From the NCBI GenBank assembly GCA_947568835.1, contig OX387605.1, forward strand, positions 17,860,418-17,924,417: a stretch of 64,000 nucleotides of DNA. The letters are read 5' to 3'. Under the pieces are notes generated by a model. The model worked only from the letters and a program-made list of their open reading frames with translations, did not search any database and was not told the DNA's origin. The position numbers were made by a program, and so were the translations under genes. The number at the start of each line of letters is the position of its first letter. Position 1 is the first letter of the stretch. Below are positions 16,820 through 55,457 of this stretch, in pieces. The stretch comes from Protonemura montana. Lineage: Eukaryota; Arthropoda; Insecta; Plecoptera; Nemouridae.

Positions 16820-17369
16820 ATTTGTGGTGTTTAACGGCGCAATTTTTTAACAACGGACCCTCTGGCACTCATATCATAGCGTCGGCGGATGAGTGGGCGA
16901 TGATGAACCTAACCTAGCCTAGAAAGAGAAGGGTGGACCGAACGGTTTGGCGTGTTGGAAACACCGGTTCTCGTTAGATCACCGAAGTTAAGCAACACTG
17001 CGCTGAGTCAGGTATTGAATGGGTGATCATTATACACATGACCAGTTCCGTTCGGGAGAGAGGTTGGAGGGATGAAAGTTAGTACAGCAACTTCATTCGC
17101 CTTGCTTATCAACCTCTCGACAGCATGGATTTGTGGAGGAATCCTGCTGTTCGCGTTGTACCGTCCTTCGGAAGGGACGTGAAGCCGGTGGTCCCCTTGG
17201 TGCTCTTCGACAGGAGTAGGCTACGTGCCGGCACCGGGTTTCCCCTCCTCCCTTCTAGGCTAGGTTAGGTTCATCATCATCCTCATCATCATCCACTCAT
17301 TCACCGACGCCATTAGACCAGTGCCGCAGGGCCAGTTGTCAAAACAGTGCGTCGTTAAACACCACAAAT
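16820..17369. mobile_element. Foldback element with ~100-bp terminal inverted repeats and internal 5S-rRNA-like sequence
   Basis: The left end begins ATTTGTGGTGTTTAACG and the right end is its inverse, CGTTAAACACCACAAAT, with similarity continuing inward about 100 bases through GATGATGAACCTAACCTAGC. Inside, 16966-17030 (CGGTTCTCGT, GATCACCGAAGTTAAGCAAC, then AATGGGTGATCA) closely follows the interior of eukaryotic 5S rRNA, including the pol III internal control region. It encodes no protein, so it is non-autonomous. Fragments recur at 17372, 31819, 34080, 46922 and 58800. No clean target-site duplication is visible. Confidence 0.75.
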
Positions 17370-24243: not shown

Positions 24244-27200
24244 TCACTGTTTTCTAAAAACAGGTTTAGCTCGACGTTTACTGGGACTGTCTTCAGGAGA
24301 AGGTGCCAGGGGGTAGTTCTGTCTCAACTTTTCTTCCGTCCCGTTCAGAACGCCCTTTCTTTTTCTGAGCGATTCTGTGGGAAGATGGTCGGTGGGTCGC
24401 AGCAGAAGTCTGAAGTTGTATGGCCCTGCGTCCGTGTCACTGCCTTGCTCTGGGGTCACGGTAGGTCGTAACAAGAGGCGGAAGTCTGTAGTTAGAGGGT
24501 AACCTCCGGTGCTACTGTTCAATCGGTTGTTGCGAGGGTCAATCTTGCCGCCACTGAAGAACAAAACGCAACATTTTACTACTGTGTTAAAAAAAAAAGT
24601 ACAACGAAATGTTGCGAAAAAATTGTAATTCAACCTTTCGAAGGGCATCAAGCCCGAGAAGTCTAGTAATGAAAAATGTAATGAAAAATTTTAAAAACTT
24701 ATCATCGTCGGCCACAGCAGCGTTAATAAAATTATTCGCATGTTATTTGCAATTATCGCACTCAATCTATGCAAGAACTGATTTGTGTTAAATGGAAATT
24801 GTTACCCTTTTCTCTGGGCTTGCTGCTCCCTGCCCGGCTTAGGTGGCTCGATGACGTGATGCCATGCGCTAAGTAGTTGTCGTTCGCGCAAGATATTGTC
24901 GTGCGCTTGAGACGCCAAAAGCTGTCTCCTCTGCACATCCATATCCAAAGTCTCCATCCGTGTCCTAAAAGAGGTTGTGAATTGTGGTTTACACGCATTT
25001 GTTCAAGAAGGGATGTAAAGATACTTCATGAGCAGGTCATAACAGTGCAAAAAAAAATGTAAGCAAGACTACAAGGCAAGTATTCTGTAATTAAGCTCTA
25101 GTCACCAAAAAATATGCTGAATTTTAGCATGGCTGTGAAAGCTTCAGGGACAATCCTTCTCTCAAGAAAGTGCATTCCTACAATAGCATACCAATTTTCA
25201 ATTTGTGTACATCTACGTATAAGTATCCCACGATTGGATAGGTCCAATTAACCTCAAACCAATGAATGGCGTAGAAAAATACATCTAGGAAAAAACATCA
25301 TGCAATGCAGTTTTGTTCGGGCGTATTACCCACCAAAGTGGTTGCATCTTTGATTCCAGTTGAGAAATTGGCAAATCCCAAGAGACATTATCGTCGTCCC
25401 CAAACTCCGGGGAAGGACTTCGATGGTTTAAGTGCAAATAGAGGGCGTGAGAAGCCGCGCAAGAAAGAAACACAGAAAGTAAGAATATTTGACAGAACAA
25501 CGACACAGACAGAAATGAACACAGTGATAGGAACAGAAAAGACAGTTATGCTGGCTATTGAACTATGTAATATAGCTGCAGCGTTATCGGTTATGGTGCT
25601 GTTATCTTAGGTTACCTGCTCATTTCCTCTTGAAGTGCTTCGTAGTAAGACGTTGATTCGTTTGATGACGCTCTCTTACCGTCAGACCGTTGCTAGAAAC
25701 ACGATAAAACAATAGTAAGAATTTCTGACACATCTTTTCAAATACAACTATGGAATAAGCCATTTCAATAAGTTGCGATTGACAATCGATTTCTTACCTG
25801 ACTCTCATTTGATCTGTTCATGAATGACGGTAGCAACTGGAAACCCCGGGGTCTCGCGTAGTCTTTCGGAGGGGGAGTAATTTCTGACGTATGAATTCCA
25901 GGCTTGTTACGTCGCAAGTATTTGTGAGCTTCTTGATTTACCATATGCACCTGAAACAAATCGAATTAAAGACGCATTGCATAAATAAACAAGCGTACCA
26001 CCATCGTAACAACGTGCACTTACATTGTGGGAGAACGCAATGAGTTCGGCTTGTCTCTCTGCAGCAGTCACCTTTTTCTGTGGTACTTGTTCTTTGGTCT
26101 GCTTTCGCCGTCTTTGCTTGGGAGAAGGAGGATCCTGTCCGCTCCTCCAGCTTCGGTAATATCTCTGAATGACTACGACGGCGTCTTCTGCAGTCAAGCC
26201 CTCGTCTTGCAATGCTTGCTTTGCGGACACTGGGGAGTAATGGGTCTCCAAGACTCTGTTGACGCGTGCCTCGAGCTCGGCGCCCCAGCGTCGACGCACA
26301 GTGTAGCCACGGAAATCTAGGTAAACAAATTGTGAACAAACATTCATGGAGATGCAATAAAAACAATTAGGCTGACTTTGGCCAGTGAATACAATGAAAT
26401 GTGAGAATTTTCTTCGAGGTGAGGAAGGTACGATCCGTGCATTTAGCTGTGATTGTGTATCTCTACAGGTAAATTACATTACAAAACCATGTGGTTGTTC
26501 CTGTGTGATTCTCGATCCCTCCAGAATGGCATGCCGACTTATCTACTTTTCCAAGGTCATCAAAAAATGAAATAAGAGGATAAAAATGTCCTTAAACGGT
26601 AACAAAGTAGCTTACGACTTTGTATAACAACAGCTGCCGACTCCTGATCGAGATCCTTCTTCGGTTCTTTGTTTTCCTTTTCTTCCCCGAGGTCTTGTGA
26701 AGACATTTTCCTAAGCAGCTTGGCCTTGAACCAGGCGCCTGCTTTGCTCCCCGCCTTCTTCTTGGCGGCCACAGCAGCGGCGGCGGTCGCGACTGCAACT
26801 TCCTGCTCTCTGCGCAGCCGCTCTTGCTCGTGGAGACGTTTCCTCGTGAGCCAGCCACGCACGTGTCGTTGTAACGTCACGATGCTCACCGCAACCTAAA
26901 CGGACAAGTCGTTTTATATCTCTTATTATCTTGGCATCAAATCTCTGCTCTTTGAGTTCTGACCAAGGTTTGAGAGTATGCTGTCCAGGGGAGAGTGTGG
27001 CTACTATAGGCTAGAAATAACCCAAGCTAGACTCGAGATGTAGCGTCCTGGCTGTGGTTTTCCATATGAATCATATAATTTCAGAAAAACTCCAAAGGTG
27101 TTTAAAGGCTCTTGGGGGATCTTTAAAATTATATTGCTCTCTTAAATATCCACCCTTAAAACAGCTTTAAGAAACCTATCGGTAACCTATTAGTTAGTAA

Positions 27201-30200
27201 CTTATTAGGAACCTTGCAAAGCTTTCACCATGAAAAACAAATCCACCATTCTGACTTTGTCATCAGTAAATTCTCGCGCGAACATAGTTTACGTACCTGC
27301 CACTTGGCGCGCTGGTATCTCACTCGAGCCAGCCATCGACGGACGCACGCCTGGACGCGTATGATCTTGCGCACTTGATCTTCGTACATTTTAGACAGGT
27401 ACTCGACGTGATAGTACTTAAGGAACACCTTGGTCTTGCCCAGCGCCCATCCATCCATCTTGAGCCTGATCAGCAACAGGCGGCATGTGTCACGCGATGC
27501 TACCACCCGCTCGTCAAAGGCAAACCCGAGGAAGCAGTATCTGCAAGATGAGATCGACGCAAATTTCTTAGATTAAGCATAATGGCTCCTCTACGTTGTA
27601 GTTTTCTGTGAGTTTTATGCGACAGAGCATTGGTGCAGAAAACACCGTGAGGTTTTCTTTCACTCCATATTTATTTTTTTTAATGTTGCTCATCTATAGG
27701 AAATGTACAGAAAGCTAGCAAAATGCAAGGTTTTTGCTTGAAACTTTAAGTGGAAATACAAGTAAATTCCACCTCTTGTTTAGTTTCTAGCAACTGGGAA
27801 CTACAAAAATATACCAGGTAACTTGATTTCACTAGCTCTATGAAAACTGTCATTTCGTACCTCTTAAGGAAATCAGAAAACAGCAGTCGATGTGAAAACC
27901 CGTGCTGTCGAATTCGTATCGTCTCGAGCACGCCCGTGTAACGCAACTGCTTGACAACTTTGCTCGAGTCGAATAGCTGCGCCGCTCGGCAGTCGTTCGG
28001 CTTGAGACAGCGCACAAACTGCGGCGACCCGCTCACCATCTTCTGCAGCAAGTCCATCAGCGAGTACCGGAAGTAGGTGGCCACTGTTTGCTGGGCGCGT
28101 GACTGCGATGCGAGACCGCGGCTGCAGTAGCGTTCCTGTTCAACATGCAACGGTCAACGTGGAAACAATTAATCAGCAATGAAACACGCAAAGACGAAAG
28201 GCCGAACGACGAAGAGAACCTCAGTTAGAAGTCGAAAAATGACTGAGCAAAGTGAAATGTGGACTAGCTAAAATTAAACTTGTTCAGATTTTGTCTACCG
28301 TCATTCGTATAGCACCTTTCTATTGTGTTTAAGCTACATTAAAGGATGTTACTCTGATATTGTAATAGTGTTGACCAAGAAAAAACCGTAGTAAACACCA
28401 TCGCCTATTGCATGCCATTTTATTCATTCTTAGGAGCAATGAACACAAATCTAATTTTTAAATTTTTTCAGCCTCTGAAACTCACGTGGAGTTGGAACCG
28501 GAAGAAAACGGTTTAACATTTTTGTGCTAGTAACTGAAAAGCCGAGCGTCTCCACTCTCCAACCAACTTTATAAGGATTTTTTCAAAAAATAATTACACA
28601 TACCTTGGAGCAGGTCGGCGTGCTCCTAGGCGAGTCCTGGTTCGACGAGTAGAGGTTGCCGGTCTTGGTGATGGGACACTGGAAGAGGAAGCGCACCATG
28701 TCCCTGTGGGAAGCGCGCAGCAGCTGTATCACTTCGGGTGGCAGGAAGTTTCTGTTCTTGTCGAGGAACCCCTCGGCTTGGTACACAACCCGACCCGCGT
28801 AGTGATGCACGGCGAAACAGAGAGCGTCAGACTTGGGCCGGATGTAGAACTTGCTCTTCACGTTGTTGTGGAACTTGTCTGGAAAAGTGAAAAGCATTAG
28901 TCAGTTTTTTGTCACACTAAAATTGGACAAATCTGAAATAGGATTGCATTGGAGTGGCTCTTAGAGCAAAGAATGTAATTTGACTGCGTCATCGTTCTCA
29001 GACTAAGGCAAATGTGATATGAGTGGAATGATAATGAAATGGAATGAAATGAACTCGTACTATTCAGTACTATGCAGTTCAAAGATCGTTTGCATAGCAC
29101 ATTTTGTGACCGATGGCCATCCATATTGTATAACTCAGCTTCTGCTAAAGTTTAAAATCGCAATAGACTGCATTTACTGATAAAATACCAATCTGTGTCT
29201 GTTCCTTTACGCCTTAATGCAATAATAATAAGTGTACCTATTAGCGAGCGATCCCTCGAGCGTGGAAATCGCGACTCCTCGTCTAGAAGCGCCAGTAAGC
29301 CCATCGGCCGGGACAACAGCATGTCAAGTACAGGCCTGTTGTCGGAGAACTCGACCAGGTCAACAGGAATGCCTTCAGCCATGTACTCCTGTTGTTCCCA
29401 CGTGAATATGTGTTGATTGAAGTAGTATTGGATCTGTTCGTTGGCTATGTTGATGCACAACTGTTCGAATGAGTTGTGAGGGAAGTTCTCGAAGCCGAAG
29501 ATGTCAAGAAGGCCAATGGCTAAAGGTTCTCCACTAAAAAAAATATAACAAGGAACATCTTTAACAGACACATACTCAATAACCATTTTAATATGTAAGA
29601 CAACAATGAAATGTTAACATACCAGGTGGCTCTGTTAAACATGAGTAAGACATTGATTTGGTTGACCATCCAGTCGAAGAGTCTTCCATAGAGTCCCTTT
29701 GCCATGGCGTCTCTGGCCGCCACGGCTTCAACCACAGTGTTGTTGCGGGTAATTGTCTCTCCTCTGGTCACGACGCTGTTGGACGTCAGTGACTCCAGCA
29801 AGTCACTCGCTTCCACCCCTAGCAGTTTCGCGACTGCAAAGAGATGTTACATTTGAGACAAGATGAACTACCAATATTTCTACAAATTCTCACAAATATT
29901 AAAAAATAAATAAACTCTTCAGACAAGACTTTCCAAATTTGGAACGGTTGTGAATCTCTTAAAAAAATATTCGTCGATATACACCCAATTTCGACAATAT
30001 TACAGTTTCCTCACCTCGATGTAGAGGAGCTAGGTCCACCATCCTGCTCTTGTTGTCTGTGTTGTCCTCGCTGACCACCTCACCGAACTCGATGTCCCCG
30101 AGGTGCAGGATGGCGGCTAGGATCCTGTAGACGGTGTCTACCTCGTCGTCCTGGAATCCCAGCATCCGGAACCCTGTCTGCAGCTGCTGGAACTTGCTCA

Positions 30201-33200
30201 CGTTGCCCTGGAAAGATTCCGGGAATTTAAAATGTTTATCAAATTACTCATTCGCTTCCCAAAGCGAATCAAACATGACACTCAAAAGTGCTGTTTAGTT
30301 ATCTAGTAGTCACCCATTTGGGTGAATTACTGATCTCAAAGTCATTGTGTTGCTTCACTTTTATTCGGTAAGGCAATAAGACACAGACAAACAACTATAT
30401 TCATGTAATCATACCCTTTTTGTTTCATAGTCGTGAATATCCTGCCCTAAAAAGTGGTGGTGGAGTCTCAAAACGGGGTCCAGATGGAATTCAGATAAAC
30501 GACCCGCAGCTTCCAGACCGTCGTACATGTAGTAGAAGACGTGGAAATTGCGTTCGCCCCTATTCGGTGAAAATCAGGAAACCAAATTAGTTAAACACAT
30601 ACAACAGTAATGCAAAGTAAGAAAAAATGATAAAATGCCACATTTCAGATCTTATTTCACAAAAAAAAAACAGTGATTGACAATGACTCACTCAGCTTGC
30701 TGCGAAACTCTGGACTGCTCGAGCAGATAGACGGCAACCCGAGCGCCAGTAACTTTGCCGGCCTTGGTCATCGTTAGGTCTAGGAACTTCCCGAATCGCG
30801 ACGAGTTTGCGTTGATTCCAGTTCGAGCGTTGCCAAACGCCTCCATGATAGGATTCACTTGCAAAATCCGGTCTTCAAGACTGCGATTTGGTGCCTATTT
30901 GGAGGGATCACCACCGATTAAAACGTGGTTATCGTTGACGTTATTGTGACTAGACAACTGTCACCAACTGGTTTCTTCTGATTCTAATAATCTATTTATT
31001 TTTCCCAAGGTATTGCAAAATGAAAATCTTAATCGAGTGAAAGACACTACTTCTTTTGGTATCAATTACATTCTCTTTGACACTTAACGCAAGTTAAAAG
31101 TGTAAACCCCTATTCCAATAGGAACGCTCTGCTGTCTCTTCTGGCTTCAAAACCGTTGTCTTATAAATATGCTTACTTTCCCAAGAAAGACCAGCTGCTT
31201 GAGCAGCAGGTTGGCGCTTTCTGTTTTCCCGGCACCGCTCTCGCCACTGATGACAATGGCTTGGTTGTGTCTCTGGTGCAAAAGCGCTTGGTATGCAGCG
31301 TCCGCCACTGCGAAGATGTGTGGTGGGTTGTCCGACCTCGCCTGGCCTAAAAAAACGCCCGAAATTTTCAGCAAGCCACTCTTTTCATGGTTAAAATGGT
31401 AGGTGAAGTGTGTTAATTTCTTGTATTTACCTCTGTACTTTCTTTGCTCGGTCTCTGAATAGATGCCGATGTCGTCGAAAGGGTTCACTGCCACTAAGAT
31501 GTCGCCGATGTAAGTGTAGATCTGGTTTTTCTCGAATCTGTGTTGAAGTTGCTCAACAATTGCGTCCTATTGGAAAGCAAGTCATTAACCAATGTTCCAT
31601 TGTTCCTGTGTCCCAGTTCCACGTCCCAGTTCTCCCCCAATGTCTTAGGTACCTCCAGAATATATGCGCCAAACTAAATCCCCCCCCCCCCTTCCTGCAA
31701 CGTCTAAATATATTTTGTTCTTCTGTTGAATCAATCGCAAATAAAACTCTATCGACTACAGTTAGCGCCACGTCACACTTAGCGCAGCAGTTTTATTCCC
31801 AAACTTATAGGACGATCCGCCATTAGACCAGTGCCACATGGCCAGATGTCAAGACAGTGCTTCGTTAAAACCCACAAATCAAACTTAAAAATGATAGAAA
31901 CAACACGGAACAATAAAACTTTATCCCCCCCCCCCCATCCACCGCCAATCCCGGATCGTTCCAATAATACATCAGTAAGTCAACCATTCAAATCAATTAA
32001 AAATCAAAATAATCCTCATTTGGATTTAGCCAATCTTGCCAAGTCAAATTTATTACAAGAGAAGTTCCTAATCGTAGGTCAGCAAAAACACGAAAACATG
32101 AACACTATCGGGGGTATTTGTATTCAAACAGGTGTCAGAAGACGCTTAACGTTTCTTGGCCAACGTATCGTCGAATCTCTTCCTCCTGGTAACGTAGTAC
32201 GCGTTAGGGTTGATGGGAGTGCGACAGGCATGGCATTGAGGGATGATGAACGTTCCGTCACCCAACGTGTACACCGTCGTGCCCTGTACCTCGGAGAGGA
32301 TGTCGAGGGCTGCCAGGTCGTCCATGTACATCAACTGCGCCTTGGACTTGCGGTCGGACTTGAGCTTCCCGTGCTTGGTCGTCACTTCGGGGCGCTTGTG
32401 AGTTCGACCTTCGGAACGTTGCCGGATTATCTCTGCCTTGAGTTCCTGGCGAACCTGATGAAGAACGTTTGGAATTTGTTAGGTGGGATTTGAAAAACTT
32501 AGTGGTGTTCCGACTCCAAAGGTCGATTTTGCTTTGCAGAAACGTTTATTGTTTCTCGTTTACGCGTGTCTAAGATGACGCAGTGATATCCTATATTTGA
32601 GGGCAGTAAATCCCAAATTCAACCTTAAGTAATTCTTAGCTGTAAAGCTTAACACAACGAATTTTCTCCTTGGCCGGAAAACAACCCCATAAATTTGGGG
32701 TAAAGTTTTTATCACCATGGTAACAACTCCTGCAAATCTGGGAACACCACCTGTGATTGGCTGATCATTTTTAAATTCCAAGTTTAAAGTTGCACTGTCC
32801 CTTGTACATACGGCCCATGGACATTAAAACATCTCCATGGTCATCCTTTTAATCTCTAATCCAGCACATTAAAACTTAACGTCGTTAGGTGAACCACCAA
32901 AAATCTTTACCACCACGATATGATCCAGCAGTGAGTCCGACCAACAAACTCATCTTAATATCCATTAGTAAATTGCGCATTATTTCAGAATCACCATATT
33001 TGTAACTGGACTTAAGTCCATCTCACTATTCCACTTAAACCAGTTATTTTGTAACGCAATACACGTGGCCGGGCACGAACGCGTCTGTCTTGTTTCCTAT
33101 GACCACTCTGACGTGCTTGTCGGCAACCATGACCTACGAGCATTTGGCCACCGTAATCGCGACCGGTTGTACCGCTCTTTTACGGTTCCTCATGCCCGTT

Positions 33201-36200
33201 GTTCTCGTTGCTAATGAACTCGTCATTATCAGAATCTCCACTTTTCATCGAGCTTTCCCTGCCTGGCTTGAAACTCGATGTTTCAAGTCGACCAGGTCAG
33301 AGGTCAAGAAATTGTTGCACTTTTAGAAACTCTGGTGGTGTTCATACGCCTGCTAGTGGCATGACACAGTTTACATCTATAAAGAGTCTTAACCGTATTT
33401 TTAATCAAACCTAATTAGAATGGCAATATCGCAGCAGAATTCTATTACATTTAAAAGCGAGGTAAATAATTACAAATAAACATAAGTGTATCGACGTGCG
33501 CGACGTGAAAGCAATAGCAGTGAACCTAATCTAAGAAAGATGGACACTTCTTAATTAAGCCTTTACATGGGGTTGTCTCATTAAGGAAGGATTAACGACA
33601 GATCTTTTGGGCATGCTCTCTTCTCGCTGGCCTTCTCAAAGCGTCAGCTGTCAGTATAACAAGTTTTTTAACACATTGATTAGACATTCTAATTAGTTCT
33701 TTCGCACTTAACTTTTGAACAACATTTCTTACCTTAGCAGAACAGTTCTTGCCACGAATCATCAGAGGATGTTGCAGCAATTCGCTAATGAAAGGTCGAT
33801 GTTCGAGATCCTTGATCAGGCATTCAGAGATGAAGTCGGACAACATCGGGCTAAAGTCGTCAGGACGAGAGAGTCCTGGAGGAGGATTGCGCGGTATCTG
33901 GAATAGTGCCCTCATCGGATGGAGTTCGCAAAGTGGTGGGTCGCCTTCAGCCAATTCGATGGCGGTGATGCCCACAGACCAGACGTCGCATCGAGAATCG
34001 TATGTCGAGTCCAGCTGGTAACAAAAGATAATTATTGATATGTGGTGTTTGACCAAGGTATTTTTTAACGGGTTTTGATGAAAATGATGACTTTCCTAGT
34101 CTGGACCAGAAGGTAAGTGGTGATGCCTGGCTCTGACAGGTATGATCTACTTCTGTTGAAAGCCGGGGACCACTGGCTTGACGTTATTCCCAACAACACC
34201 GAGGATTCCTCCACAATGTTTGGTGCAAGAGGTTGATAAGCAAGGGGTAACTACTATACCAACTTCAAACCATCTACAACATCTCTCTCTCTCTCTCTCT
34301 CTCTCTCTCGAAGAGAAAAATGATGGTCACCCATCCAATACCGAACTCAGCGCAGTGTTACATGATACCAGTGATATCACGATAATCGGTGTTTTCAACA
34401 CACCAAACCGTTCTGTTAGGTAACAAGGACCAGAGCATGCAGCTCACATCCACAAAGCAGTGACTTGGAAGTTAAAACTTGAAAGTAATGTGATTAATCG
34501 TGGATGACGTTTTAAGTTGAAGAATTAATATTTTGTGGTTTTTGTTGCGTACAAAAAAAAACAAGCCATGTGTTACTCGTAGTTTCAGGTGCTACCATGC
34601 ACACTCATTTCCTAGTGTAATGCAATTCACGTTCAATTTATGTGTGTCTAGCCAAAAATAAAGCACGTAAGTTGTAACGGTAATGCTTAAAATTAAATGA
34701 GAGCGCATACACCTTAACAAGTAATAAGTTGTAATGTTTCCTTTGTTTCACTCCTGAAAAGCTTCGACTACAAAATAATTACCAAGTTATAAATAAACAC
34801 TGCAGCCTGCCACATCTTACACTAATATATGGCTTCAAAGTAGCGTTGGTGGTACTTAACCATGAAATATCGCATATTTATACATTCCAAGGGGAACTCC
34901 TACGCCCAGATTCAGTGATTTTCCATCACGTTAATTGAAAAAGGACAACGGTAGGTACTTGTGTCTGGAAGCTGAGAGAAAACCAATTTGGCCACTTAAA
35001 TGTTTGCTGCAATCTTCGTAGGCGAACGGACCTCAGGGTACAACCCCGAGATGGATTTTTGATCGCTTATTATTCTAATTTACTAGTGAGCTCCGTATAA
35101 GGATTGATAAAATAAAATGATTTAAAATAGGACCCTGCAACAGATTAGCTCGCTTCACTTTTAGGAGTTCCGACACCTAGCTTTCAGTTTTCAAGCGGCA
35201 AAGAGACAATGCGCGCTTCCTGACCGCACAAAGAGAAAATCAATAAGATATATAAAAAACGGTAACTGTAACTAAACCAGCATAGTGAATTGAGCCCTAG
35301 AGATTTAGAATGAAACGGGGAAAGCCTGGATTTAGGTACCTGCTGCTCACACGCGATCACTTCCGGGGCCATCCAATAGGGCGTCCCGACGGACGTGTTA
35401 CGTCTGGCGAGCGTCGCGGCGAGATGTGACGAGACGCCGAAGTCGACTAGCTTCACGTGGCCTTCTTCTGTCAGCAGGATGTTATGACCCTTGACGTCGC
35501 GGTGCATACAGTGGTTGCCGTGCAGGTAGATCAGTGCCTGGAAAAATATTGAGAGAATGCTCGGTGTTGTTTGTTTTTTGCGGCTGTTTATGTGCGACTG
35601 AATCGGGATACAAACCCGGGATAGAAAAACCGAAATCCCTGCATTAAAATCTCTGTTGTACGCAGTACATAAACAAAATAAACATTTTTGTATCTTTTTA
35701 TGAAGGTGTGTTCTTAGCAATTAATTATTTTATAACTACCATTAAAACAAATCTTATCAAACCATGTAAATATCTTATCAACGTTGTACAACATCAACAA
35801 GACATGAGTGCACATTTGCCCTGCATATTTAGCTGAAACCCTATACGACAGAATTTTGGAAAAAGTTGCTCGTAGTCTTTTTTGAGGGGATTGTGGGGTA
35901 TTTGTTTCCAAATTATAAAAAAAACGAGATACCAGTGGATAGATATTCAGTTTATTATTATTATTATTATTATTATTCATATTCAGATATTATAGATATT
36001 CACTGTAAATATATTTATTTTTTCTAAAACCCTCGATTACTGTGATTCTAGTTTGACAATATTCGCTAGAAGAGGTCACTTTCCACTGTTTTCGCATTAC
36101 CTCCTCGGTGCCAGTGAATGAACTACTCGACTGAAACAAGTAACCTGTCACAATTTGCAACTCAATGCAATTCCGGATTCACATTGTTTCCGAAACAACG

Positions 36201-39200
36201 TGTACACGCAACTTGATACTTACACGAAGCCGGCTATTTTGTCCAAATTAGACCCGAACCAAATGATTTCAACGCAGCAAACGTGATTGCTATCCCCTGG
36301 CCGTTAGACCATGGTGAGACGGCATGGGCTATGGTTTATTGAGGGCATACAACAGATTATAAGCGGCCATTTGCAAGTATAATACTGCAGTTTTTTTTGG
36401 GCCTATAACACATATGTTAATTCCGTTGGTCAATTACCTAATTACACGGGGCTGTAAGTCTAATTAAAAGAATATTTCGATTTTTAGACCAAAGCTAAAT
36501 TATACTATAAAGATTTTATTATCAAGTAAAATGTATCGACAAAATTTCTATATAGGGAAAATAATTGGAATATTTAAACTTATAAGATATAAATCAAGCT
36601 CCTCTAATTGGATGTTTATAAAAATAAGCAGTTTCACGATGTTTTCAATAAGGAAAACAAAACTCTATGTAAATATATGCGCCTCACGTATATATAATAA
36701 GACTGCATACATTAGTTCCGATGCTTGAATCGCTGGGCTCAAATTCTATTAGTATCTTAAACACATTTCAAGAATATCCACTATAGGTAGTGATAAATTG
36801 CTACAATCTTAATTGCATCTCGATTACTCTGCGCAAAATTGATACCCATTACAACACCTTCTTTTTGTCGGTTCTTATATGCGTTTCTAGAACATGCCGA
36901 CTACCTTCAATCCCATGAGCTCAGTAAGACAGAAATCGAATTGAGTTCAAAATGACAGTTAAAAAATGTGCGCTAATTATCTTAATATTTGGGTACAATT
37001 AGACAAAGTACTACTGTACCTCAACTGTCTCGCGTAGAATGTAGGCGATCTGGTCTTCGGAGAGGCGTTCCCTTCTCCTCTTCAGACCCTGGACCAAATC
37101 TGTGACGGACCCACCTGTGCAGAGCTGCAAAAGAAACGATTTCATGATGTTCAGCCAAACCCAAAGTTGATCTATATGTTTTTTTCTCTTTTAAGGGCGA
37201 CTCCTAAAATTAAATAGCATGAAAATAGATATGGATCGATTTTTTAAAACTTCAGAATTTCAAAGTATTCTGAATGTGTAAAACGTCGAGAAATTAACAG
37301 TTTTTCAAAGACAAAAAATACCCAGTGTCTGATTGGTTGATTGTTGGATTGACTGTTGCTAATTCTACTGAAATAACAGAAAATTTATAATTTACAAAAA
37401 AACGGAGGCTCCAATGTTTAACTCATGTTTAACGCACATAACAATTGCAAAGCCTTTTGTCAAATACGCACTGTATTTACTACTGATACATACCGTGATC
37501 GAATTGCGATGCTCAAAGATTGCATAGTAATGGCCACGGATTCTCAATTTAATAACTACCATGTCCGCCGCCTGCCTCCACTAGGAGCAAAGCCAGACTA
37601 ACAATTTACAAAACGGAAAATCAACTGGGGAGATGTTTCAATGGTATACTTCTCAATTAATTAGAGCTTAAAATCTTTAAACATTTCAGCGCATGTCGAT
37701 AAACAAAGGTTTGATTAAAACTTTGTTGGTCTTCGTAGGTACACACACGCTCGGTGAATCGTATTTTTTTTTTTTTTTTAATCAGTCTTTGAAAAGCTTG
37801 TCGGTTCGTCAGGTCGTCAGTTGAAAGCTTGTCTCGTCAGTTCTGTCAAAAGAATAAATATTGCCACTTTTTAGATGAAAAATCCTCCTTTTAAAAAATG
37901 AGCGATTCACCACTTCATGGTTCGGCAATGTGTTTTACGTCAAACCTCAGCACAGACAGAGCAGGCTCCTGTGCCTGGAGTGACGTAGCTAAAAAATGCA
38001 CATTTGCACTGACCTGCACTATCAATACCAACAAATCAAAGATACACCACCTCACCGTCCCAAGACCGTATCGACACTGATTTCAAAACTTTACGCTTTT
38101 TACGAAATGACCTAGTCGTTTTACTGGCGTCATGCACGGTCAACGCTATAACGAGGGGGGGTCAACTAGTAAAGTGTGTAGGAAGGTACTTCAATAACGT
38201 CATGCAATGCTTTGAATACCAGATTTCAAAAAAATGTATTCTTCTGGAAAAAAATCCACTACGCGTGTGGTAAAAGTTGTTTTTTTACTAAATTTTAAAA
38301 CCGTTTTGCTCGGGAGTTAAACCGTTAATTAAGACCGTTTTAATCACTCAATTATCATAAATTCTTCTAATTTTATGGCAAAGTACTGAACACATTAATT
38401 AATTGGTGGCGTAACAAAAATCTTAGCACGTTTTTTGGTGATTGATTGAATCTGTCCAAGTAGCATATCAAAACAGGATTTATAGCTTTCATTGTTTTTT
38501 TTTTATAAATTTCTATTTCCACTTTTTTCCTGTTAACTTTGCCAAATGAATATTTACTGAAAACCAGTCAATTTCACCCTAGCTCTTCATATCACTTGAA
38601 ATTTCGAAATCTTACCTCCATGACAAACCATAGTTGGTCTTCCTCTGTGGTCGCTCCTCTTCGCAAGTAGAGCCCGTGGAAGGCGGGGATGTTCGGATGA
38701 AGACTCAAGTCTCTCAGGACAAGAAACTCCTCCTCGATCTCCTCGATGTTGTCAGTGACGTTCTCGAGAATCTTCACGGCGACCCTATGACCTACGACAA
38801 GAAAGGGGCATTCGAGTAAAGAAAAAGCACCTTACGACCTTGACGTATGGGACAAGATTATCAGATTATATTATATCAGATTACGATAAATCAGCCTACT
38901 CCAGTTGAATTCAGGGCAGCAGATCTGTATGGAATTGTGTCAAATGTCAAGAACTTAAGATTAAATTCAAGATGACGTACTGTTGCAATATGTTTCTGTA
39001 GTGAAATGCATAGTAAAAGTACAAAGCGCAAATGTATGGCAGGTAATTTGGAGGTGTGTGTAATTAACATTAGCGACTGTGCCCACAATAATCGTGCTGC
39101 ACCGTTAATGTGGCGACAAATAGTTAAACTTGTGTTTTATTACAGTAAGTTGTTGCAAAAAGCAAGATCACGTCGCGAAAAAGTCACTTTTTCTTGTGCT

Positions 39201-41706
39201 TTCATTTAATTTCAAGTGCACCTACGAGAATTCGAGCGGTTGTCTGCGATGAAAATTGCACCACTCGTTAATAAATGAGATTTACCACCAACTGTGTTGG
39301 CAAGAGGTAAAATGTTACTTACCACTATGCCGTTTTTTTTTTTTTAAATTGCTTGCATCCACAAAGTGCATGTCACGTGTTTTTTTTTTTTTTTGTGTGG
39401 AATAGAAAACACAAAAGAAACAGTGCTGTTTATTTGCAGTAATTAGGTACGTGAGTGCAGAACCGCACCTAGAATTGGGCCAATTCTATTGGTTTTAATT
39501 CCTATCATTATCGTAAGACGTAAAAGGTAAGTCTTAGAATGAGGCTTGGACACTTGAAAATGAATCGAAGAGCAATCAAATAATTCGAGCGTCCAACAAT
39601 TAGGTCAATAAAAGCTCGATCAATAACAATAGATTTTCAGCTGTTGGAACAAATTAATTTAGACTCTAAAAAGCAGATCTCCATTTAGTTCTCACGGATT
39701 CAGCTTCGAATAGCATCCAAGAGAAATCAGCCAATTGCCGTGACAAATTTCCCTAAGTGCCAGCAGTAATGTCGCGTATACCGAAGTCATTCAATTCAAT
39801 CGAATTTAATTGACTGTAAATAATTTGGAGACATCAAAGAATACGACACGTCACGACAAATGTGATCGGTCAATGGACTCACCACTCGGACACGTAGACT
39901 TGCGTCGCTTGCATGAAATATTGTAAGATTGCGGTTCAGATTGTGACACTTTGACAATATTTCATAATCATGCGTTACGCTGAGTCGATCTGTTCGGTGG
40001 CCCATGACTCAAAAAGACTCTCCGCTCGCAAATTGCGCGATTGCCGGATTCTTCACATAGTATTGCCAATATAGCTTAGGCGATGAAGATAACAATGATA
40101 GATCCGGGATTACTTTATACTAATTGGAGAAATACTTGCCAAAAAAAAGATATCTTGAAGGTAACAGTCGCTAATTTATTTACTTGTGTCAATAAAACAA
40201 ACTACCTTCAATCCTTGTATTGGCTTGCGTGCCCTATTTTCTTCGGTAAAATTGATTGACTATCAGTTATAAATATCTTAAAAATTAACCTCTTATAAAA
40301 CTCTTAGCAATTTGTTTCGTACGAATGATACTCGGAAGGCCAAACTGATAACATCCTAACTTAGCACAGTAAACGTCACACACAGCATAACATCTTCCAG
40401 AGTGTAGGACACTTTGCCAGGGGACACTTTGCCAGGCTGTAAAGGGGTTGTTAAGGTTGGGTAGAGGGGGTGGGCAGGTAGGTATTCCATCGGTGTGATT
40501 GACAGTTTGCTGGGCTTTGCTTGCGAGCTCCGTCGCGGTCAAGACATGTCTCCCCGGTTATGGAAGAATAATGTTCCGTGGGTACTACGTCAAAAGTTGA
40601 AGAAAGAATGAGAATACATAAAACGCAAAGTCGAAGTTAAGTTGTGTTCGTTCGATGCCGACCCTTCCTTCATAGCTCAAAACCTACAACCCTAATTTAA
40701 AATCATTTATCAGAGTTCACCATTGTAAGTCACAGACTAAAAAAGGAGAAAAATGCATTGACGAGCTCATTAAAAAACCAAAAACTAACAGTCAGCCTGG
40801 TGGACTCTATGATATCAGATCCCCAAAAAGTGGCAAACTCACATTAGTTATAGTGTATCGTTAACAGTTTACAAACAGTTACGATGAAATCCATTGTGTT
40901 GCGATAAAACTGGTTCTATAGCAGTCATCCTGCTAGAATTTTTTTGAATTTATCTAGTGAAAAATGATACCTACATCCTATCATAGCTTTGTAGATTTTG
41001 AAATTATTCAAACACCTTACGCACGAGTATTAGCTTCAACATCTTCTTGGGTCAAATACCTATAAATTGGATATTCAATCAAATACCAATCCGAATCAAT
41101 AATCATTCGTCAATAGACATTCGCAAGCATTGACGAATTAGGCGACGGAAGTATCCCGACTCCACCGACATGTATAATTTTTTGAATTTGGCACTCGTTG
41201 AATTTTTTGAATATCAGGTTGTTTGAATATCAGGTGTCTGCGGCCATCCGTACAGAATTTACAGCGCTTTTTCGACAGCGCTTTTTCGACAGCGCTATTA
41301 CAGCGATAGTGTCGTGTTGTATGTATTCTCATTTTTTCTTTAACTTTTGACGTGGTACCCACGGAGCATAGTTCTTCCTAAACCGGGGGGACATGTCTTG
41401 ACCGCGACGGAGCTCACAAGCAAAGCCCGGCAAACTGTCAATCACTCCGATGGCATGCCTACCTGCCCACCCCCTCTACCCAACCTTAACAGCCTGGCAA
41501 AGTGTCCCCTGGCAAAGTGTCCGTCCCCCCATCTTCCAGTAGCTTCCAGATTTCTGTGAAAATAATTTACCTGTGGTTGTATCCCGGGCACTGTACACCT
41601 CCCCGTATGTCCCCTCTCCCACCAGCTCCTGCAGGATGAATCGGTCCTCTTCAGGCTCCGGGAGTTGGTCGAAATTGACGTGGTGGCTCAGTCCTTGGTA
41701 CGCCAT
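24244..41706 (-). CDS. ninaC: NinaC: class III myosin with N-terminal protein kinase domain, 22 coding exons, 1,493 aa
   Basis: Exons (minus): 41571-41706, 38616-38791, 37020-37124, 35340-35537, 33733-34014, 32290-32454, 31431-31566, 31177-31346, 30692-30894, 30415-30559, 30015-30207, 29623-29833, 29238-29533, 28604-28878, 27861-28135, 27297-27540, 26616-26895, 26024-26316, 25798-25950, 25616-25692, 24806-24964, 24244-24553; the sum is 4,482 bases in phase. Kinase: GEGTYGEVY 30-38, Lys52 in [12 protein letters not shown] 151-158, DFG 171-173, APE 196-198. Linker YMDDLAALD. Motor: P-loop GESGAGKT 434-441, switch I NSSRFGKF about 486, switch II DIFGFE 717-722. IQ motifs near 1050, 1075, 1158 and 1212. 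The tail repeats FRLLLRPT twice. Drosophila p174 is 1,501 aa. NinaC carries calmodulin in rhabdomeres and acts in phototransduction termination and adaptation. The 41735 acceptor shows a leader exon lies further upstream. Confidence 0.97.
25334..25417 (-). CDS. ninaC: Possible cassette exon of ninaC tail
   Basis: Between tail exons 20 and 21 an 84-base, frame-preserving block could be included: acceptor CATCGAAG, donor CTTTG|GTGGGT. In the phase required by its neighbours it is open and reads [20 protein letters not shown] onward to MQPLW. The acceptor has a poor polypyrimidine tract, which argues against. If real it would add 28 residues to the tail. Confidence 0.25.
31819..31879 (-). mobile_element. 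Solo terminal inverted repeat of the foldback family (ninaC intron)
   Basis: CCATTAGACCAGTGCC through CAGTGCTTCGTTAAAACCCACAAAT matches the right end of the complete element at 17310-17369 with a few changes. It lies between two poly-C runs (31680-31692, 31925-31935). No interior or partner end is present nearby. Confidence 0.65.
32049..32054 (-). promoter_or_regulatory. Intronic polyadenylation signal (AATAAA) for a short ninaC transcript
   Basis: TTTATT on plus reads AATAAA in the ninaC sense direction, about 92 bases after the TAA that ends the read-through of exon 6. Its placement relative to that stop is what a genuine 3' end would show. Confidence 0.5.
32146..41706 (-). CDS. ninaC: Predicted kinase-only ninaC isoform (401 aa) ending by read-through of exon 6
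   Basis: Exon 6 normally splices at 32290 (GAG|GTACAG). If unspliced, the frame continues 47 codons to TAA at 32146-32148, reading [20 protein letters not shown] and then [20 protein letters not shown] before the end. This tail is GC-rich with mostly G/C third positions, unlike the neighbouring intron, and an AATAAA follows at 32049-32054. The product would have the complete kinase domain (354 shared residues) and a basic tail with a CxxC pair, but no myosin motor. It is an inference from sequence only; the alternative is a chance open intron. Confidence 0.5.
34080..34430 (-). mobile_element. 5S-rRNA-like element copy with (CT)n tract, in a ninaC intron
   Basis: The complement of 34325-34430 reads GAACGGTTTGGTGTGTTG, then ACACTGCGCTGAGTTCGGTA and TTGGATGGGTGACCATC, matching the 5S-like interior of the element at 16820 and the 3' half of 5S rRNA. 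A (CT)n run at 34282-34309 interrupts it. GTTGATAAGCAAGG, also shared with other copies, lies at 34230. Outer inverted repeats are not recognisable. Confidence 0.6.
35952..35980. repeat. (TTA)n microsatellite
   Basis: About nine uninterrupted TTA/ATT units in a ninaC intron. Confidence 0.9.
40398..40625 (-). repeat. Interspersed repeat, copy a (inverted partner of 41305-41533)
   Basis: Contains GGACACTTTGCCAGG twice, GGTTGGGTAGAGGGGGTGGG, a GCGAGCTCCGTCGCGGTCA block, AGACATGTCTCCCC and GAATGAGAATACAT. The same blocks occur in reverse order and orientation at 41305-41533. Class unknown; no protein coding. Confidence 0.75.
41305..41533 (+). repeat. Interspersed repeat, copy b (inverted partner of 40398-40625)
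   Basis: Reverse-complement copy of the repeat at 40398, beginning TGTATTCTCATTTTTTC and ending CTGGCAAAGTGTCC twice. It ends only about 40 bases downstream of the donor of ninaC coding exon 1, so the repeat pair can fold within intron 1. A short triplicated CAGCGCTTTTTCGA motif lies just before it at 41260-41300. Confidence 0.75.
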
Positions 41707-50744: not shown

Positions 50745-52556
50745 ATGGCACAATGCCAGAAAAAAGATTGCAAAGTTTCACAAAAACGAGAAAAACTTAT
50801 TACCGATTTCCAGGAGCTGATTGACTGCATGCAAGTTGGGTATGTGCTTTCTGGCTAGAAAAGATGTAGAGTTTGGGGAATTGAAACCTTAACACATGTC
50901 ATGTTTACATATTTTTCAGTCCATATCAGAAGCCAGTAGCCGGGCAGATCACCGTGCACAAGCAGCTAGTTTGCATCCCGTGTCCTAGCGGAGACGGAAG
51001 CAATGATTCTAAAGCCAATGTAAGTACATCTATAGACCTCTATTTCTACGATACATCGGTAACGAAATTGCAGCAACCACATTGTACCAATCGAGTCAAA
51101 AGATAAAGCCCAATCCAGGTCGACCTATAGATCGAATGACCCATTACTACTTCCTTTTCCGCTCACTTTCGTTGCCTTTGTCTTATCTTATATCTTTCAG
51201 TTTTAGAGAATATCTTTAAAACAGAACCATTTACTAAAACTATGTCAGTAGGCGATCAATTGTGAAAAACTTTTGTGAGCTATATCTACTCAGCGATTCG
51301 GTGGTTTACTTGAACTATATAAATACTGATCAGATAGTATTTACCTACCATTTACTTTTCGTCTATAAGAAATTAACATTTGATTTCTTATTGAATGCTC
51401 TTCATTACAGGACCCATGCAAAGATGACGACTCTTGGAAGAAGGATCGCTACAAAAGCATTGAGTTGAAGGGCGGCGTCATGATCACAGGATGCGCCTGT
51501 TTGAAACGCAACGGCCTGCAGCATGATTGCCCCCGCTCAGAGTGCATGGGTCGTCCCCCGTGCCTCTTGAAGCCGTGGCCCGACTGCATCCCCAGCGGAG
51601 GCACCGGTCTACGAGGAGCCGAGCCCAGAGTATCCCAATATCCATACAAGCCAGCTCCCTGTCCCCCTCCAGACTTCCCTCTGGGATACGAGGAGGACCA
51701 GTGCCACAAGGCAGAAGTCGACTGCAAGAAATGTGTGCCCGTTCTAATGTGCAGACCAGGCGAGATCTGGGAGTGTTACGAAGGAAAATGCCCACCAAAT
51801 CCACCCTCGGACTACAGATATCAGAGCACACAACTGCAGACACAGAACCAACAACAGCAATGTCCTCTAGGCAAGCTTATGCAGCTCGTCGAATGTCCGC
51901 TAATATCTCAATGTCCGGATAACCCACAAAAACGGGAAGATCGACTGCCAACGAATGTTATGGGCCAAGAGATCATTTGTCAGCCGGATCGTGCTAGCAC
52001 CCAACTGCGTGACATGCAGCAAGCCATCGGATGTCCCAATCGCGGGCCACATCAACGGCCCGGCTACGAAACCCCTCAGCGTCAGTGTCGGCCCTCAGAT
52101 CCGCAGCCGATTCAGCAAACTGTCCCCTCGTCAGCTAGAAACGGCATGAACTGTGAGAAATGTCCGATTTCTGGAAGCTCTAAGCACTGTGACCCTCCAA
52201 CGCACGTCCTGAAGCGTCCTGCGTACGAGGACCTGCGCCAGCCGCCGGTAAGTGATACTTGCGAGTACGAAGTGTATTACGTCCCTGTCGAGTGCTCGCA
52301 GCCCCGTTCCGAGCAAACGCCTCGAACCAGTCCGTGGTCGGAACAGCCGAACACTCGGCGGCCGAAGCCGGAGTTCGTAGCGCCGGTCTACAGGACGCCC
52401 CCGCGTTCGACTGTCGACGACTGGATTTGTCAGCTTCCTTGCGAAGAGAAGGAAAAACCGAACTGCGAACAGTGTTACGGCGAGGCTTGTATCTGGCACA
52501 AGCCGGCACCAGTGCTGAGACGGTTTACACCCCATGATTTGAGCAGCCAGTGGTGA
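50745..52556 (+). CDS. Gene A of the CxC-NGL family: Cys/Pro-rich 446-aa protein, 3 exons
   Basis: Exons 50745-50839 (donor GG|GTATGT), 50920-51019 (acceptor TTTTTCAG, donor AAT|GTAAGT) and 51411-52556 (acceptor TTCATTACAG); 1,341 bases in phase. The N-terminus MAQCQKKDCK has no signal peptide. Residues 86-105 carry the family signature GGVMITGCACLKRNGLQHDC. The remainder has many CxxC or CxxxxC pairs, Pro/Gln-rich spacers, a CEYEVYYVPVEC motif near 346-357 and a final CEQCYGEACIWHK. No transmembrane segment. I do not recognise the family; abundant Cys and Pro without a signal peptide recalls structural or reproductive proteins, but that is a guess. Exon 3 contains an in-frame donor at 52248 (see findings). 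AATAAA lies at 52959. Confidence 0.8.
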
Positions 52557-52958
52557 GGCGACTTCCGCTTTGCGGATCTGCGGGTCACGTGCAAGGTAAG
52601 GATGCATCTTGCGGGCCGCATGTGACCCCTGGACCGCAGGATGTCGCCTCATCACCGCGCGATCGGGGGATACACATCTGGCCCGCAAAATGAAGTAAAT
52701 ATCACAGCTGGATTCGATTTTCACGTAAATTCTCTTGGTATTGCGGTTAACTTGCAAAATTGCAAGGATCGGAAATTCAGAAGGAATTTACTCATTAGGA
52801 ACAACAAAGCCATCTCAAAAATATACCTCCAAAGATACCACCTTACCTTCAATCGAATCGAGCCCGGGTTCCAAAACTGACAGCGGGTGATCCACTTGCA
52901 ATCTGAGCTAAAAAGGCCCGAATGGTAAAACTCTTTAAAAGGCATTATTTTTCCTAAT

Positions 52959-52964
52959 AATAAA
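52959..52964 (+). promoter_or_regulatory. Polyadenylation signal AATAAA after gene A
   Basis: AATAAA lies 403 bases after the gene A stop, and overlaps the base before the ATG of gene B by one position only. Confidence 0.4.
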
Positions 52965-53390
52965 ATGTCCTGCCCTTTGCCACAGATGAATCCATGCCAT
53001 TACGAGGTTTATGTGTGCGTCAATCTTTACATCCATCCGCGCATGTTCCAGCCATGTCCGAAACCTAAAATGATACACCACCCCGGCGGCAAGATCCTCC
53101 CGAACTACATGCAACTACGCGCAGGGCAACTTTTAACACGCTGCGACTGCTTGAGGACAAACGGTCTGCAGGATGACTGCCAGCTGCGACAGTGCGGCAT
53201 CCCAGAGTGCCTCGAGAAGCCTCCGGATTGTCTACCAGCCGGGGGAAGAGGCCCCAAGCCCAAACCCACCATGTCTAGCAATTGTAATGGATCTACTAGG
53301 ACCACTAATGAGTCAGCGTGCCCACAGGGGTATATGCGGTATATCTGCTTCAGCCCCGACCCGGCGGCGAATTACTACTACGACAATTGA
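52965..53390 (+). CDS. Gene B of the CxC-NGL family: 141-aa Cys-rich protein, or final exon of gene A
   Basis: The frame from ATG 52965 encodes 141 residues. Residues 54-72 (GQLLTRCDCLRTNGLQDDC) are the family signature, and CHYEVYVCVNLYIHPR at 11-26 is similar to the CEYEVYY segment of gene A. It ends AANYYYDN. A pyrimidine-rich CCTGCCCTTTGCCACAG directly precedes the second ATG (52986), in frame 0, so this block may instead be a downstream exon joined to the in-frame donor at 52248 of gene A. Only about 400 bases separate it from gene A, leaving little promoter room. AATAAA follows at 53544. Family and function unknown. Confidence 0.7.
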   Translation: MSCPLPQMNPCHYEVYVCVNLYIHPRMFQPCPKPKMIHHPGGKILPNYMQLRAGQLLTRCDCLRTNGLQDDCQLRQCGIPECLEKPPDCLPAGGRGPKPKPTMSSNCNGSTRTTNESACPQGYMRYICFSPDPAANYYYDN

Positions 53391-53543
53391 GCCTACGGAC
53401 ACTTTGTTAGCAAAAAAATGCAAAAATCAAGATAACACAAGTTTTTTCTCAAAAAAAAAATCTCCCAAAACATAGGAAAGTCAAGAAAATGTCTGTTAAC
53501 TTCTCAAAGAAATTTCGTTTCGGAACGCTGATGATACTTTTGG

Positions 53544-53549
53544 AATAAA
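53544..53549 (+). promoter_or_regulatory. Polyadenylation signal AATAAA (gene B)
   Basis: AATAAAG lies 154 bases after the gene B stop. Confidence 0.65.
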
Positions 53550-53723
53550 GAAGCCGCTCGGAGAATACTGACCATGCTTTCTTTCCTGTATTTTTATGCA
53601 ACCTTGTTTACAGTGCTGTACCACGTTTTGCCTACCCTAGTAGCAGACCAACCGGTACAAGATTCTCACATGTGACCCAGATAGTGTAGCTAAAATTGTT
53701 TTTACTTTCCCCGCCGCTTATCT

Positions 53724-53796
53724 GTTTCCGTGGTGTAGTGGTTATCACGTCTGCCTAACACGCAGAAGGTCCCCGGTTCGATCCCGGGCGGAAACT
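53724..53796 (+). tRNA. tRNA-Val (AAC)
   Basis: All arms fold: acceptor GTTTCCG with CGGAAAC, D arm with TAGTGGTTA (A box), anticodon stem TCTGC/GCAGA around loop CTAACAC with anticodon AAC at 53757-53759, variable AGGTC, T arm CCCGG TTCGATC CCGGG (B box). There is no intron, and TTTT, a pol III terminator, follows immediately. Identical over 72 bases to the minus-strand copy at 55093. Confidence 0.97.
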
Positions 53797-55092
53797 TTTG
53801 TGTTTTTTTATCGTATAATATGTATGTAGCTTTTGAACGAGCTTATAATGCATGCGCTTATGCATGAAATAGCTATGCCTAATTCATTTAAGTTGTTTCA
53901 TTGCATGTATTGAGGAGAATTTTGTTAAATTAAGCAGATAAAATTATTTTTGCAGAATATTTTTGCAGAAACGTGTCACAGCGGTTTTGCAAAAAAAAAT
54001 TGACCCAATCACTCCTTCTTGAGTTGTCAAGAGTTGACTCATAATAACCAAGGTAGTCTTAAACTTTATATAGGGTTTTTTTTTACAGAAAAGACGTGTC
54101 AAACTTGGTCCTGAATGGTCCTGAAGGGTCTGAAAGGTCGTCAAGAGTCTTCAAGGATAAATATTTCGACCAATTAAGGGCTGGTTTTATAATGTCCCGT
54201 TAAAAAGATAACTGAAGGTTGGGATGTCAATAAAAGCTATGTGTGATCTGTGAATAGAAGCTTCTGACTGGCTGTAACTGTCAGTTATATTTTTAATCGA
54301 ATATTGTAAAACTGACCCTTAATTGGATGAGCGCAGCAAGCGAAGACCCAATTTGACATACAATATTCAATTATCAACTATCAATTATCAATTAGTTGTC
54401 CTTTACTTAGCATTCAAACCCATTTCAAATAGTTTTTGTTTAAACACAATTTGACTACTTGGAAGAAACTAGTTTGCACTCTACTGACTTAACGGCTGGA
54501 CCGATTTTAATGAAATTTTCAGGAGACCTTTAAATTCGCATATTTTAGATCAACTCATACTTTACAAAATAATTAGCCGCACATTTTTTTATTAGATTTG
54601 TTTTAAAGTTAAGATAACTTAAATAATTTAAAAACTTAATAAATGCCAAAATACTTGACAAAACTTAATGAAATTTTGCATATATATTGACGGCATTGAG
54701 ATAAATCACGTCTAAAAATTACAGATCCATACGTTCTTTCAATGCAGAGTTATTTTCATTTTTCAAGTGTGTTTGCCAGTTTTTACACCTTGTTCAGCCG
54801 AGAATTAATTCTTAAACATTTCTTTACCACTATTTCAAAGAAGTAAGTAATTTTATTTGTAGCACTCTTATAAATTGGTTAGCACGTCTTTCAAAGCGAA
54901 CCTCCGACGCGATAGGGAGCGTTCGCGTCTACTAAATACCCATTTAGCCAATCTCTGCGTGCCGCGTGATTTTCGTCAACATACAACTAGTATTCAAAAT
55001 ATATCATCTCCGTCAAAATTATTAGCAGTTGCTAAAAAAACGGTACGGTGTCAAAAGCAACGTTTTTGCTATTGATGTTTAAAAACACAAAA
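53797..55092. other. Spacer between the two tRNA genes, no gene seen
   Basis: A+T-rich with homopolymer runs and only short open frames. Small direct repeats occur (AAGGGTC, TCAATTATCA). Nothing coding is supported. Confidence 0.6.
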
Positions 55093-55164
55093 GTTTCCGC
55101 CCGGGATCGAACCGGGGACCTTCTGCGTGTTAGGCAGACGTGATAACCACTACACCACGGAAAC
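55093..55164 (-). tRNA. tRNA-Val (AAC), inverted identical copy
   Basis: The minus strand reads the same 72-base tRNA-Val as at 53724, base for base, with anticodon AAC and intact A and B boxes. The 3' flank (CTTTTGTGTTTTT) is also shared, so the inverted duplication extends past the gene into the terminator. Confidence 0.97.
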
Positions 55165-55457
55165 TGATAATGATAGGCGACAGGAAGTCTTTCTTCTGAA
55201 GAATATTTGCTCGAATTTATGAAAATGTGGAAAAACATTTTCAGAAAAGGGCTCTAAAATGTATTGATTTTCCAGAGTCAAATACAAAATTTCTGATTAA
55301 TTTTCAAATCCGATAAATAAAAAAATATCAATCATGATCCAGTAGCCTTGTTCACATTGTTATCATTCACTTTTTTTTTCTACTTAATTCCAAAATTGAT
55401 AGCGTACCGTTTTGAATATTATCAAAATTATATAATTATTTTAATTAACACAACACT

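Follow-up and report, generated by a model that had tools for sequence, protein, structure and literature searches.

A kinase-myosin gene and the extension of its sixth exon

The window (the whole 64,000-nucleotide stretch of Protonemura montana DNA analysed here) corresponds to C3:17860418-17924417 of the species' own genome (258,480,905 bases in 34 contigs), which is also the genome that was searched. On its minus strand lies a kinase-myosin gene, referred to below as the window gene, for which 17 exons were modelled, from an ATG at 41706 to 26616; the exon boundaries were set by eye, and translation proceeds across the 17 exons without a break. The final exon of the same gene probably corresponds to an open frame that runs to 24244. 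When the exons were compared separately with Pfam, matches were found to Pkinase (5.3e-22 and 6e-11, with 0.02 on the exon 1 frame), Myosin_head (6.7e-33 and 7.7e-35) and IQ (4.3e-07), which is the class III layout of an N-terminal STE20-type kinase followed by a myosin motor and an IQ neck. The PDB sequences nearest to the kinase, among the best 60 of 555 matches, are those of MAP4K4, MINK1 and TNIK (E 4.4e-94 to 1.5e-91). The exons and the features surrounding exon 6 are as follows.

41571-41706, minus strand: exon 1 from the ATG, with the kinase glycine-rich loop
38616-38791, minus strand: exon 2, kinase N-lobe
37020-37124, minus strand: exon 3, kinase; donor GAG/GTACAG identical to that of exon 6
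35340-35537, minus strand: exon 4, with the catalytic HRD, DFG and APE motifs (identified by eye)
33733-34014, minus strand: exon 5, kinase C-lobe
32290-32454, minus strand: exon 6, linker between kinase and motor
32149-32289, minus strand: 47-codon extension past the weak donor GAG/GTACAG, with one CxxC, a basic C-terminus and coding-like synonymous codons
32146-32148, minus strand: TAA ending the extension, where the codon signal falls
32049-32054, minus strand: AATAAA, putative intronic polyadenylation signal
31818-31891, minus strand: high-copy repeat in the remainder of intron 6
31431-31566, minus strand: exon 7, the first motor exon, starting DAIVEQLQ; spliced to exon 6 when the full-length form is made
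26616-31346, minus strand: exons 8-17, motor and IQ neck, missing from the predicted short form

The first-pass annotation had described a frame that stays open for 47 codons past the exon 6 donor and ends in TAA with an AATAAA hexamer 92 nt further on, and its coordinates are correct. Exons 1-6 (354 aa) together with the 47-residue tail would give a product of 401 aa, in which the glycine loop, VAVK, HRD, DFG and APE motifs are all retained (as identified by eye); the intact kinase and the basic tail with its single CxxC, both proposed earlier, were likewise found in the sequence.

Several other features were recorded in the window. Intron 1 contains an inverted repeat (40446-41494) with 179-nt arms that are 91% complementary and 691 nt apart, which may be a small DNA transposon, and a second high-copy interspersed repeat at 32683-32805 flanks exon 6 and its extension together with the one at 31818-31891. 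Two tRNA-Val(AAC) genes (53724-53796 and 55091-55165) lie in opposite orientation approximately 1.3 kb apart, and there is a single match to 5S rRNA at 16937-17057 (63.8 bits). The region 51384-57256 holds four open frames (at 51384, 52929, 55508 and 56645), some of them cysteine-rich, none of which matched Pfam or NCBIfam at E 0.01.

Relationship to class III myosins and NinaC

The gene had been named ninaC in the first-pass annotation, a name that better suits another locus. When the P-loop exon was searched against the genome, nine places were returned, the window's own counted, and at one of the others, C1:24793342, a kinase exon that also matches lies about 2 kb off. This place belongs to a second kinase-myosin gene in the same genome, L031 (C1:24788500-24798400), the pieces of which, joined by hand, are 56.5% identical (229/405) to Drosophila NINAC over its N-terminal half, against 42.1% (187/444) for the window gene and the same sequence. 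L031 carries the motif GSPCWMAPEVV and an altered P-loop, GESMSGKT, where the window gene has GESGAGKT. Other arthropods have been reported by Odronitz and Kollmar (PMC2375034) to possess a true class III myosin alongside NinaC, which is set apart as class XXI, the class III gene having been lost in Drosophila. The choice between classes III and XXI was judged from pairwise identities to NINAC; the window gene probably fits an arthropod class III (MYO3-type) myosin, and L031 is the better candidate for ninaC. The joint in L031 that is homologous to the end of exon 6 (DLAALEEVTEDNILSEL) sits inside an unbroken frame, and the end of exon 6 is therefore probably not common to the NinaC-like gene.

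Codon use in the extension

An open frame of this length is not in itself unusual for the gene. Among the 17 donors, read-through continues for 51 codons at exon 4 (35186-35339), 46 at exon 5 (33594-33732) and 47 at exon 6, whilst at exon 7 it reaches 94 codons because the frame crosses an intron of 84 nt and enters exon 8. Because the neighbouring introns stay open for 46 and 51 codons, tail length is no special evidence, and open-frame length was rejected as an argument for the extension. It had been suggested that the stretch is out of character with an A+T-rich surrounding intron; the length is ordinary and intron 6, with a GC of 0.44 (tail included), is the highest of the 16, so that what stands of this suggestion is a codon choice that exceeds the controls. 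The GC-rich third positions reported earlier are present, with a GC3 of 0.70 in the tail compared with 0.69 in the 17 modelled exons.

Codon choice was assessed using a synonymous log-odds score of coding codons against intron triplets. The coding set of 2440 codons came from the window gene plus a further two long open frames of the window; one of these two frames has no known family. The tail scored +15.2 bits, which is coding-like, and the nine other read-throughs of at least 15 codons (exons 1, 4, 5, 11, 12, 13, 15, 16 and 17) scored between -4.1 and -12.9; read-throughs below 15 codons, six in all, were left unscored, and exon 7 was excluded for continuing into exon 8. The read-throughs of exons 4 and 5, open yet lacking coding-like codon use, serve as controls. 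The score was 14.0 when trained on the window gene alone, 12.8 on the other frames alone and 15.1 with exon 6 removed. With the tail peptide held fixed, none of 20000 draws of intron-like codons reached 15.2, and draws of coding-like codons gave a mean of 14.8, placing the observed value at their centre. The signal is specific to the frame (synonymous scores of -1.4 and -1.0 in frames +1 and +2), and in ten-codon blocks it continues from exon 6 over the donor, with tail blocks of +1.5 to +5.6. The five blocks wholly past the TAA scored -4.3, +1.7, +1.6, -1.4 and -5.1, and the two that are weakly positive count against the kinase-only isoform proposed below.

The G+C content of the tail (0.54, with a range of 0.25 to 0.44 for the 16 introns) accounts for part of its score. 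Open sequences sampled from a first-order Markov model of the tail (Markov-1) reached the synonymous score of 15.2 in 78 of 12303 cases, and the full codon score of 13.0 was reached by 112 of 2773 sequences with an open frame obtained by shuffling the tail at constant composition. When stop-free 47-codon windows were taken from the other introns (n = 938, overlapping), none attained either of the tail scores: the highest synonymous score was 10.2, and the best full score was 12.9, from an antisense window in intron 5 with a synonymous score of 7.0. Across the whole window, a stretch with a synonymous score this high is contained in 30 of the 504 open frames of at least 47 codons; by position, 13 of these are in-frame in window-gene exons (the frame of exon 6 and the tail included) and two are in the training frames, whilst the remaining 15 either are unassigned or read a probable coding stretch in a shifted or antisense frame. 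An antisense ORF at 31783-32493 was also considered as a coding frame and rejected: the reverse of the tail has a synonymous score of 0.06 despite a full codon score of 8.8, and the ORF was accordingly taken to be a shadow of the coding strand.

Donor and putative polyadenylation signal

Scored against a consensus, the exon 6 donor stands at 0.0, tied with that of exon 3, and only the donors of exon 13 (-0.9) and exon 17 (-0.2) fall below it among the 17. The exon 3 donor has the same nine letters as that of exon 6, with no coding tail behind it, and because of this a weak donor can be regarded as permissive but not as proof. Scanning of intron 6 for other GT sites (the best six of 46) gave a top score of 0.6 at 31652, past the stop, followed by scores of -0.8 to -1.6. 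Among the GT sites scanned, none that lies in phase 0 ahead of the stop exceeds -1.6, and a longer in-frame exon 6 therefore has little support.

The AATAAA hexamer was rejected as strong evidence and counts as weak evidence, since 1040 of 9431 other intron positions (11%) have one equally close, within 98 nt. Its flanks do not stand outside those of the 14 intronic copies: the downstream G+T is 0.57 (range 0.38-0.65), and the upstream T of 0.48 is joint highest among them. The arrangement as a whole, a frame that stays open past the donor, then a stop and, further on, a poly(A) hexamer, is the layout of a composite terminal exon.

Searches for relatives of the tail

Searched at E up to 10, the tail protein has no second copy in the genome it comes from, and the DNA at 31990-32330, which includes the extension, matched only itself there. 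The repeat at 31818-31891 in the rest of intron 6 behaves differently, with 40 places scored out of 1006 candidates in the genome, and a repeat-derived tail was rejected on this comparison; as regards the transposon fragment previously noted in intron 6, a high-copy repeat does exist at about 31818-31891, and nothing beyond its repeat status is supported. Exon 6 and the tail gave ten pattern matches in viral contigs and 51 in prokaryote genome contigs, none of which was confirmed, animal relatives being unlikely in either set, and no match to PDB sequences at E 10. These collections (own genome, viral, prokaryote and PDB) hold no other animal genomes, and conservation among animals is not visible in them. 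A comparison of the 102 aa of exon 6 and tail with NCBIfam matched no family. A Sec23/Sec24 zinc finger was rejected as an identity for the tail: the match reached 14.1 bits against a curated cut-off of 25 (E 0.049) and spans the first 24 of 39 positions, and the tail has a single CxxC where two pairs are needed. A structure model of the same 102 aa, made with no alignment, had a mean pLDDT of 41 and is uninformative.

Alternative explanations

The extension could be a short G+C-rich intron start beside a G+C-rich exon that is open by luck and untranslated. The openness of the neighbouring introns and the frequency of nearby AATAAA hexamers fit such an accident, as do the composition-matched open sequences that reach the synonymous score, the antisense stretch of intron 5 that comes so near to the tail in full codon score (12.9 vs 13.0), and the lack of a tail homologue in the own-genome, viral, prokaryote and PDB collections, which contain no other animal genomes. 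An accident of this kind is less easily reconciled with the negative scores of all nine control read-throughs, with the failure of every overlapping stop-free window from the other introns to reach either tail score, or with a codon signal that is confined to one frame and falls at the TAA, and we consider it rather unlikely.

Two further explanations accept that the extension is, or once was, coding sequence. It may be the relic of a formerly longer exon 6 or of a lost alternative ending, now unused and not yet decayed; this would explain the coding-like codons, and the frame of the NinaC-like paralogue is unbroken at the same joint, but the frame of the extension is intact to its stop, with zero internal stop codons, and such a relic seems very unlikely to us. 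The extension may instead be translated in another splice form, either within an exon 6 that is longer and spliced to an exon further down or in a nested transcript. Intron 6 does offer alternative GT sites, of which the best lies past the stop, but no phase-0 donor ahead of the stop rises above the low ceiling given earlier, and use of a donor past the stop would make no difference to the kinase-only protein; we find this version very unlikely as well. The best reading of the sequence is a predicted kinase-only product with a coding-like tail.

Proposed mechanism

Exon 6 is proposed to have two fates. Splicing at 32290/32289 to the motor exons would yield the full kinase-myosin, whilst without splicing, and with the transcript cleaved beyond the AATAAA at 32054, exon 6 would become a composite terminal exon and encode a STE20-type kinase of 401 aa with a private tail of 47 residues and no motor. 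The DNA itself contains the open frame with its stop, the hexamer, an intact kinase and codon use that looks coding; from these we infer a short transcript and its protein. In human cells, composite terminal exons are used by 1648 of 2675 assembled intronic-polyadenylation isoforms, and enzymes truncated by intronic polyadenylation generally retain their active sites (PMC5928244). A kinase freed in this way would no longer be transported along actin. In full-length molecules it could phosphorylate both domains, kinase and motor, in trans, which would hold back the motor away from the protrusion tip. The trans action is suggested by analogy with human MYO3A, in which kinase activity increases and motor activity falls upon trans phosphorylation (PMC7947357). 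We regard a kinase-only isoform made through a composite terminal exon by intronic polyadenylation, with a free kinase that could act in trans, as the best explanation, and a moderately probable one.

A stronger version would have the kinase-only form as a dedicated product kept by selection, with the weak donor and the intronic poly(A) site in competition; the free kinase so supplied, perhaps nuclear or soluble, would act in trans to set how active the full-length motor is. The basic residues of the tail (RRKR...KKR) may be NLS-like and might serve a nuclear location. This stronger version is possible but doubtful.

In vertebrate MYO3A the kinase is believed to hold the motor in check through phosphorylation of neighbours where molecules crowd (PMC7947357). 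If the proposal is true, a natural free kinase would uncouple this brake from the position of the motor, and would offer a direct test of the trans model. A full-text search of open-licence PMC papers, judged by title and abstract opening, pointed to no kinase-only, motor-lacking or intronic-polyadenylation form of a class III myosin, and the gene annotations of other animals may already contain one.

Comparison with known systems

The predicted isoform resembles the composite terminal exon isoforms described in PMC5928244, in which the donor goes unrecognised, the intron is read through to a stop and a poly(A) hexamer, and the enzyme domain is kept. It differs from them in being predicted from sequence alone, and in that truncation of a kinase-myosin would separate two enzymes from one another. 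The p132 and p174 forms of Drosophila NINAC are likewise isoforms of one kinase-myosin gene that differ C-terminally (PMC4379085 and PMC3433705), but both retain kinase and motor, unlike the predicted short form; moreover, NINAC corresponds better to L031, and given this match and the separate class III reported in PMC2375034, the comparison is with a paralogue. Vertebrate MYO3A and MYO3B also carry a STE20-type kinase beside a class III motor and phosphorylate other copies of themselves (PMC7947357). In these vertebrate proteins the kinase stays attached to the motor, the part of PMC7947357 consulted mentioning no natural free kinase form, whereas in the isoform proposed here the kinase would stand free of it.
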